NCBI GenBank assembly: GCA_002729125.1
Contig: PBTQ01000001.1
Coordinates: 1 to 53,938 of the forward strand
Origin: Acidimicrobiaceae bacterium
GTDB taxonomy: Bacteria; Actinomycetota; Acidimicrobiia; Acidimicrobiales; Aldehydirespiratoraceae
Direction: 5' to 3'
Length of the DNA stretch: 53,938 nucleotides
The notes under the pieces were generated by a model, which had not been told where the DNA came from, searched no databases, and saw only the letters and a program-made list of their open reading frames with translations. Below are positions 10,061-22,680 of the stretch, piece by piece. The translations under genes and the position numbers were made by a program. Positions within the stretch are counted from its first letter, which is position 1. Each line of letters starts with the position of its first letter.

Positions 10061-10216
10061 GGTAGGGGATACCCCGGCGTCGGCGCTTTTTGCCAGGCTG
10101 CGTCTAGGCCACGAGATATCTCAAACTGACCGTTACTGCCGAGAACTGATCGGGGGAGAGTTCCCTGTAATTAAGGGGCGGTTGGGGTTTTCGTCAGTTC
10201 TGTCAGGGTTGTGTTG

Positions 10217-10263
10217 TCGGTCTGGGGGACCGAAGGTCGGAGGTTCAAATCCTCTCAGCCCGA
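10217..10263 (+). pseudogene. 3' half of tRNA-Pro(GGG), putative attachment site of an integrated element
   Basis: The sequence folds as the anticodon arm to the 3' end of a tRNA. The anticodon stem TCGGT (10217-10221) pairs with ACCGA (10229-10233) around the loop CTGGGGG, giving anticodon GGG (proline). A variable region, a T-arm GGAGG-TTCAAAT-CCTCT (10239-10255), an acceptor strand CAGCCCG (10256-10262) and discriminator A follow. The expected acceptor 5' strand CGGGCTG and the D-arm are absent upstream, so it cannot be a working tRNA. A normal terminator follows. Tyrosine-recombinase elements that enter a tRNA gene leave exactly such a 3' copy at the far end, with the element on the 5' side, here to the left. 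The intact tRNA-Pro should be outside the window. Confidence 0.75.
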
Positions 10264-17543: not shown

Positions 17544-20184
<2,641 letters not shown>

Positions 20185-20298: not shown

Positions 20299-21336
20299 TC
20301 AGGATCGGCGAAGGGCGATTCGGCCGTTGCCGTCCACCGCCCGGCCGATGACTGCGGCGGTGTGCCCGTCGGCGACCAAGTCGGCGACGACGTCGTTGGC
20401 TGCATCGGGATCAACCCCGAAGACGAGGCCGCCTGATGTCTGGGCGTCGGCGAGGATCGTCACGTCGAGATCATCGACACCAGCACCGATGTCGAGCCAC
20501 TCGTTGATCCAGGCCAGGTTCCGGCCGGTGCCGCCGGGCACCACGCCGTCGGCTGCGAGCTCGGTGGCGCCCACAATCATGGGGACATCGTCGACGACGA
20601 TCTCGAGCCCGACCCCGGACTCCTGCGCCATGCGGCCGGCATGGCCGAGCAGGCCGAAGCCGGTGACATCGGTGGCCCCTGAGGCCCCGGCGGCAATCGC
20701 CGCGGCGGCGCCTGCGGCGTTGGTGGTGGTCATAGAGGTGATGGCGGCCTGCATCGTGGCGGCATCGGCGACATTGCGCTTCTGGGCAGTGGTGATGATG
20801 CCGATGCCGAGCGGCTTGGTGAGAACGAGCGCCTGACCGGCCTGGAGGCCCGCGTTGGTGAGCATCTTGTCGGGATGGACTTCGCCCACTACTGCCATGC
20901 CGTACTTGGGTTCGGGGTCGTCGACCGTGTGTCCACCGGCAACGACGAAGCCGCACTCGTGCGCAATGTCCTGACCTCCGAGCAGCACGTCACCCAGCAG
21001 GTCGTTAGAGAGTTCCTCGGTGTTCCAGCACACGAGGTTGAGCCCGAGGAGCGGAGTACCGCCCATTGCGTAGATGTCGCTGACGGCATTCGCAGCAGCC
21101 ACCCGGCCCCAGTCGCGCGCATCGTCGACCACCGGCGTGATGAAGTCGGCGGTGACGACGAGGGCGCGTTCGTCAGAGAGGCGGTAGACAGCGGCATCGT
21201 CGCCGCTGGCCGCCCCAACGAGCAGGTTCGGTGAATCAGGTGGAGTAAGGCGGCGCACGACCTGCGCCAGTTCGCCGGGGGCGAGCTTGCAGCCTCAACC
21301 AGCGCCGTGGCTGAACTCTGTTAGTCGTCGCGTCAT
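20299..21336 (-). CDS. selD: Selenide, water dikinase SelD, a selenoprotein read through an in-frame TGA
   Basis: The enzyme makes selenophosphate from selenide and ATP. The frame from ATG 21336 reads MTRRLTEFSHGAG, then TGA (21295-21297), then GCKLAPGELAQVV, continuing into the conserved 'NLLVGAASGDDAAVYRL'. In E. coli SelD the matching segment is SHGAGCGCK, so TGA replaces the catalytic Cys and Lys17 follows at the right spacing. The TGA therefore encodes selenocysteine (residue 14 of 345). A start at 21258, after the TGA, would remove the active site. Other motifs: 'TADFITPVVDDARDWGRVAAANAVSDIYAMGG', 'VVAGGHTVDDPEPKYGMAVVGEV' and 'TDVTGFGLLGH'. The host must possess SelA, SelB and tRNA-Sec elsewhere. 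Confidence 0.92.
21262..21292 (-). promoter_or_regulatory. Candidate SECIS hairpin for SelD selenocysteine
   Basis: Just 3' of the UGA the mRNA can fold: CUGC (21289-21292) pairs with GCAG (21262-21265) and CGCC (21280-21283) with GGCG (21273-21276), with an internal loop between and a CCC tip. Position matches bacterial SECIS elements, which lie directly after the UGA within the coding sequence. The loop does not show an obvious canonical GU, so details are uncertain. Confidence 0.4.
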
Positions 21337-21423: not shown

Positions 21424-22500
21424 ATGACCGACACCGTCGATCCTCGCCTTCAGACCCGTGCAACCGAACTCTTCGGTGTCCGATTCCCGATAGTGCAGAC
21501 CGGTATGGGTTGGGTCGCTGGCGCATCACTCGTCAGCAGCACCGCCAACGGCGGCGGACTCGGCATTCTCGCCTCCGCCACCATGACTTTCGACGAGATG
21601 GTCGAATCGATCGACGAGGTGCACGAGCGCACGGACAAGCCTTTCGGCGTGAACCTTCGAACCGACGCTGTCGACATCGAACAGCGGGTCGATCACCTGA
21701 TTTCTGCAGAGGTCAAGGTCGCGTCCTTCGCCCAGGCGCCGCGACCCGACATGGTTGCGAAGCTCAAGGAGGCAGGCCTCGTTGTCATGCCCACGGTCGG
21801 CGCCCGTCGTCACGCCGAAAAGGTCGCTGAGTGGGGCGTCGACGCTGTGCTGTGCCAAGGCGGCGAAGGTGGCGGGCATACCGGCTCGGTGCCGACGTCG
21901 CTGTTGTTACCGCAGGTGATTGATGCAGTCGACATTCCCGTTATCGCTGCCGGTGGCTTTCACGATGGCCGGGGTCTCGCCGCCGCCCTCGCGTGGGGTG
22001 CCGACGGCATCGCCATGGGTACGCGTTTCCTACTCACCGCCGACTCCAAGGTCCCCGAGGAGGTCAAGCAGGCTTATCTCGCCACGCCGGTGACCGGCAC
22101 CGTTGTCTCCACCGCCATCGACGGTGCGCCCCAGCGGGTGATCCGCACCGACATGGTCGATTCGCTAGAAAACGCCGGCCTAACCCGCTTCCCGAAGGCG
22201 GCGCTGAATGCCCTGCGCTTCCGGAAGATGACCGCCACCTCGCTCGGCGACCTATTCCGCGAAGGTCTGGCCATGAAGAAGAACCAGGATCTCTCCTGGG
22301 CGCAGCTCGCCATGGCGGCCAACGCCCCGATGCTCACCAAGGCCACGATGGTCGATGGCGCGATTGGAGTCGGCATCCTCCCGACCGGTCAGTGCGTCGG
22401 CGTCGTCGACGATCTTCCGACGTGCGACGAATTGATTCAGCGCATCGTGGGGGAGGCGGTCAAGGCAATGAACCGCCTCGCTCCCGCCGCTTCCTCCTAG
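21424..22500 (+). CDS. Nitronate monooxygenase (2-nitropropane dioxygenase family)
   Basis: 358 residues, an FMN-dependent TIM barrel. It begins 'ELFGVRFPIVQTGMGWVAGASLV', the family opening, and has 'ANGGGLGILASATM', 'KPFGVNLRTD', 'CQGGEGGGHTGSVPTSLLLPQV' (phosphate/FMN loop with catalytic-region His) and 'IPVIAAGGFHDGRGLAAALAWGADGIAMGTRFL'. Members oxidise alkyl nitronates such as propionate-3-nitronate, or act as enoyl-type FMN reductases; the exact substrate is open. ATG 21424 follows TAGGGT (21411-21416) by 7 nt, a leaderless start. It is divergent from selD and is followed by the B12 riboswitch of the next operon. Confidence 0.88.
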   Translation: MTDTVDPRLQTRATELFGVRFPIVQTGMGWVAGASLVSSTANGGGLGILASATMTFDEMVESIDEVHERTDKPFGVNLRTDAVDIEQRVDHLISAEVKVASFAQAPRPDMVAKLKEAGLVVMPTVGARRHAEKVAEWGVDAVLCQGGEGGGHTGSVPTSLLLPQVIDAVDIPVIAAGGFHDGRGLAAALAWGADGIAMGTRFLLTADSKVPEEVKQAYLATPVTGTVVSTAIDGAPQRVIRTDMVDSLENAGLTRFPKAALNALRFRKMTATSLGDLFREGLAMKKNQDLSWAQLAMAANAPMLTKATMVDGAIGVGILPTGQCVGVVDDLPTCDELIQRIVGEAVKAMNRLAPAASS

Positions 22501-22506
22501 ACTGAT

Positions 22507-22680
22507 CCCGTTCGCCAGCAGCGAATTCCGGTGAAATCCCGGAACTGTCCCGCAACGGTAAAGCCACGCTCTCGAGGGTGGACGAGTCCGGTCGCCTGAC
22601 GGTGAACGTCAACGAACCAACCCTCGAGGAAGGGGAGGCTCGCGCGAGAGGGGGCTCCTGAGAAGGTGGTTCGCTGTCGC
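22507..22680 (+). ncRNA. Cobalamin (B12) riboswitch
   Basis: The conserved core GGTGAAATCC...CTGTCCCGCAACGGTAA runs from 22530 to 22561, followed by the B12-box-like GAGTCCGGTCGCCTGACGG (22585-22603), a near match to the common actinobacterial GAGTCCG..GACCTGCCGG. A closing helix is possible between GCAGCGAA (22518-22525) and TTCGCTGT (22670-22677). A second long hairpin (GAACCAACC/GGTGGTTC, 22614-22672) may be the expression platform. It ends about 25 nt before the AGGAGG ribosome site of btuF, so translational control by bound cobalamin is likely. All downstream genes up to 28957 are B12 genes, which confirms the identification. Confidence 0.9.

Follow-up and report, generated by a model that had tools for sequence, protein, structure and literature searches.

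The window analysed here, a stretch of 53,938 nucleotides on contig C3 of an Acidimicrobiia-related actinobacterial MAG (2.59 Mb, 118 contigs, about 90% complete), raises the question of whether a TGA codon in a selD-like frame ends translation or encodes selenocysteine (Sec). Judged from the sequence, the frame 21336-20299 encodes, with a probability of about 0.98, a selenoprotein form of SelD, the UGA of which would be decoded as Sec with the aid of SelB and a downstream stem-loop.

The selD frame and its internal TGA

The frame was read from the ATG at 21336 to the stop codon at 20301-20299. It comprises 346 codons including the stop (345 residues) and the TGA is its sole interruption, which confirmed the coordinates of the earlier note, where the frame had been followed upstream of 21258 through one TGA to this ATG. 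The read-through protein matched TIGR00476 with 371 bits (cut-off 125) over residues 4-312, covering positions 1-310 of the 311 of the profile and hence its full length, and PRK00943 with 358 bits. Residues 4-340 were aligned with E. coli SelD (PDB 3u0o), which shares its fold family and length as well as the active-site motif (SHGAGxGCK). The motif around the TGA, FSHGAG-U-GCK, aligned U14 with the first of the two Cys in GAGCGCK of 3u0o and put the Lys at +3, as had been claimed from the catalytic SHGAGCGCK region. Both the catalytic Cys/Sec and the Lys of the N-terminal loop are therefore present (GAG-U-GCK), the difference being Sec here and Cys17 in the E. coli enzyme.

One alternative is that translation starts at GTG 21258 and yields a shortened SelD-like protein that lacks the loop (e.g. 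a related AIRS-fold protein). The stop-aware ORF list does begin there, giving 20299-21258 alone, so that the active site is lost, as had been foreseen; this GTG falls within the SECIS hairpin. However, homologues conserve the sequence upstream of 21258 through the TGA, and none of the 95 examined starts downstream of the TGA/Cys codon; the earlier note had named such downstream starts as evidence against its own reading. In addition, an enzyme without Sec14 and Lys17 would lose its catalytic residues; the catalytic role of these loop residues (Cys17 and Lys20) is established for E. coli SelD. The shorter start is contradicted by the conserved upstream sequence and is hardly conceivable.

Table 1. 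Features of the selD locus and further genes of the genome with an in-frame TGA at an active-site Cys (U, predicted Sec).
Feature	Position	Strand	Motif or pairing	Basis
selD, selenide water dikinase (selenophosphate synthetase), TGA read as Sec	20299..21336	-		TIGR00476, PRK00943, 3u0o alignment
TGA, predicted Sec codon U14	21295..21297	-		catalytic Cys position of SelD; TGA/Cys across the class
SECIS hairpin I	21270..21286	-	bases 12-15 with 25-28	
SECIS hairpin II, likely SelB-binding minihelix	21252..21268	-	bases 30-35 with 41-46	
FdhA			CNRT-U-HAPS	TIGR01591, E 4e-178, 600-aa piece; under the whole-protein cut-off of the model
SelW-like protein			CVP-U	family search
Three UGSC proteins			U-GSC	PF24696
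PrxQ/BCP-like peroxiredoxin			TPG-U-TMESC	family search
TlpA/ResA-like protein			W-U-ATC	family search
SelL-related protein			U-LPC	family search
WAxxUGC-type protein			W-U-GC	family search
AhpD-like protein			CHY-U	family search

Conservation of the codon and the Sec machinery

A SelD-like match was obtained in 212 of the 296 genomes of the class, and the active-site region was extracted from 95 of these 212. The active-site codon was TGA in 67 of the 95 SelD loci and Cys (TGT or TGC) in 28, with the flanking motif conserved on both sides. Among the SelD loci of named genomes (n=80), 24 had TGA and 52 had Cys, leaving 4 unparsed. The closest named relatives were from Acidimicrobiaceae/Acidimicrobiales MAGs (best identity 95%), and the closest ones have the same TGA. 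Since TGA is one base away from both TGT and TGC, it might represent a nonsense mutation or a sequencing error in a Cys-SelD, leaving the gene broken. Against this, 67 independent assemblies share the TGA, at protein identities as low as about 43-50%, nearly all of these forms lack any other internal stop, and the second hairpin behind the codon is under selection in the TGA forms only. A broken gene was rejected as extremely improbable, given the conservation of the TGA in many species. Some Sec-SelD relatives (L043, L062, L087, L100) carry U-AGK instead of U-x-C-K and have lost the second loop cysteine.

A tRNA-Sec gene was detected in the host genome (64 bits, over the cut-off), which ARAGORN also called as tRNA-SeC with anticodon TCA. 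SelA (375 bits, cut-off 268) and SelB (289 bits, cut-off 242) were found as well, encoded by adjoining genes on contig C72; selB reaches the end of this contig, so that its C-terminal RNA-binding domain was not seen in this assembly. Both same-genus genomes gave SelB matches over the cut-off. The genome thus holds selA, selB, selC and selD, the set by which the Sec-decoding trait is recognised, and the full pathway predicted in the earlier note was recovered; the lack of selA, selB or tRNA-Sec, which would have counted against that note, was not observed. By our tally, a SelB match over the family cut-off is present in 61 of the 67 genomes with Sec-SelD and in about 25 of the 28 with Cys-SelD, and the 20 listed genomes that lack SelD have none.

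The UGA might also be read by a near-cognate tRNA (e.g. as Trp or Arg) instead of Sec, as proposed for insect SPS1-UGA; the Hymenoptera SPS1-UGA keeps its UGA in a SelD relative without Sec machinery (PMC4561486). In the present case, however, the full Sec machinery is encoded by the host genome, the alternative residue was always Cys across the relatives examined, and a SECIS follows the UGA. This read-through was rejected on these grounds as very unlikely. The assignment of the TGA as a Sec codon, already made in the earlier note, was supported by the TGA/Cys conservation, by tRNA-Sec, selA and selB, and by the SECIS. Sec-containing SelD has long been established, and no bacterial selenoproteins are more widespread than FdhA and SelD (PMC1794560, PMC4561486). 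The known forms (e.g. Haemophilus influenzae SelD; SPS2-Sec) likewise have Sec at the catalytic Cys position, with a bacterial SECIS right behind the UGA and the Lys three residues further on; only sequence divergence and host clade differ. The selD of the window is a well-supported instance of this form.

By analogy with these known families we infer that Sec is inserted, that SelB binds and that the SelD enzyme is active. The UGA would be decoded as Sec in translation, with SelB carrying Sec-tRNA-Sec, binding the stem-loop just past the UGA (hairpin II) and delivering Sec to the ribosome. The residue would lie in the flexible N-terminal loop, where E. coli SelD has Cys17 and Lys20. SelD would then make selenophosphate from selenide and ATP, and SelA would take this selenophosphate to make Sec-tRNA-Sec, so that SelD would help to make the amino acid that SelD itself needs.

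Two stem-loops behind the TGA

The region behind the TGA was compared in 63 distinct Sec-type and 28 Cys-type sequences, numbering the U of UGA as 1. For hairpin I, which has one mismatch in the window (C13/A27), 92.9% of cells were paired in the Sec-type sequences, compared with 77.3% (sd 2.1) in a synonymous-codon null and 67.9% in the Cys type. For hairpin II, which has a loop of bases 36-40 (GGUCG in the window, at 21262-21258), the figure was 97.6%, whereas the null gave 68.1% (sd 1.9; maximum of 500, 74.3%). The pairing of hairpin II far exceeds what synonymous codon choice explains. In the 28 Cys-type genes, a set that comes largely from related lineages, 40.5% of cells were paired, close to the null for these genes (35.6%, sd 2.6). 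Hairpin II is likewise lost from Cys forms where the family contains Sec forms too (e.g. L114-L120). Among the Sec-type sequences, 49 have G-C, 6 A-U and 1 U-A at pair 31-45; at pair 30-46, 55 have G-C and 3 C-G, and at pair 33-43, 58 have G-C, 2 U-A and 1 C-G. The mean fold energy of bases 28-48 against the synonymous null gave z values of -22 for the Sec type and -2.3 for the Cys type, both inflated by kinship because the nulls treat sequences as independent. Despite this inflation, selection on hairpin II is indicated alike by pair sliding, by compensatory changes and by the Cys control. The peptide encoded at the SECIS is ELAQVLR in the Sec forms and mostly DLRTVLG in the Cys forms.

A G was present at position 2 of the apical loop in every Sec-type sequence, in keeping with the G expected among the first two loop bases of a bacterial SECIS, and hairpin II appears likelier than hairpin I to be the SelB-binding part. 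The earlier note had placed the SECIS at 21292-21262 (bases 6-36); this segment contains hairpin I but reaches only as far as the first base in the loop of hairpin II. The SECIS position is the sole correction to that note, the interpretation of which was otherwise supported. A fold of the single sequence was no better than shuffles (z 0.67). It was hence dropped as evidence, and the structure is based on the comparison of many relatives only. The E. coli fdhF SECIS likewise forms a hairpin whose apical loop carries GGUC, with GCA/UGC on either side. Its loop lies 18 bases after the UGA, compared with 32 in selD, where there is an extra proximal hairpin.

A whole-genome pattern search with the minihelix core, GCAGGTNNTGC, gave 42 matches, compared with 44 in a reversed control, and among 30 match loci examined a convincing in-frame TGA context was found at the selD locus only. 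This core is therefore not a general genome-wide SECIS signature. In two relatives of one genus with genomes of about 1 Mb (L059, L060), Sec-SelD is kept and the minihelix is altered (CUUGCUCAGGUUCUGAAG) and may pair with a bulge.

Further selenoproteins and the neighbourhood of selD

The earlier note had also predicted other hidden selenoproteins. Family searches, the list from which is a lower bound, detected at least 10 further genes with an in-frame TGA at an active-site Cys (Table 1; L125 on contig C13, L159 on C21, L160 on C78, L165 on C52, L166 on C56, L167 on C79, L168 on C50, L169 and L170 on C38, L179 on C40), that is, at least 11 with SelD. Since the threshold for a selenoprotein-rich organism is six (PMC5029168), this genome is selenoprotein-rich. 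Most of these further families are among those reported to abound in aquatic metagenomes (PMC2398784). Within the window, 227 candidate frames interrupted by TGA were listed; a codon-composition filter left about 83, most of them overlaps of neighbouring genes.

selD is followed immediately downstream, on its own strand, by genes for a KatG-like catalase-peroxidase and a regulator of the Fur family (17544-20184, -), possibly an oxidative-stress neighbourhood. A cobalamin riboswitch (22492-22617, +; Rfam RF00174, 33.4 bits) is located just 5' of a periplasmic-binding/ABC transporter and CobU cluster. An Rfam tRNA match at 10205-10263 (+; 34.9 bits), of 59 bases only and with no ARAGORN call, is possibly a degenerate or partial tRNA.

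A limited search of the open literature found no paper joining selenocysteine, selenoprotein and Acidimicrobi-, nor one joining Actinomarina with selenocysteine, and an earlier report may exist; deep-Sep lists 83,103 Sec-using organisms (PMC12013277). The selenoprotein-rich acidimicrobial genome and the class-wide SECIS evidence are each somewhat new. We give an even chance to the broader proposal that the Acidimicrobiia are a little-recognised selenoprotein-rich group (at least 11 genes here, plus katG) in which a two-hairpin selD SECIS shapes the protein and Sec-to-Cys reversions free a measurable RNA constraint.

Automatic annotation would cut selD short at its active site, and the gene model was corrected here. 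The results establish that an uncultured actinobacterial lineage with a large hidden selenoprotein set uses selenium, and the numerous Sec/Cys pairs of the class are a natural data set on the mutual constraint between SECIS RNA and protein.
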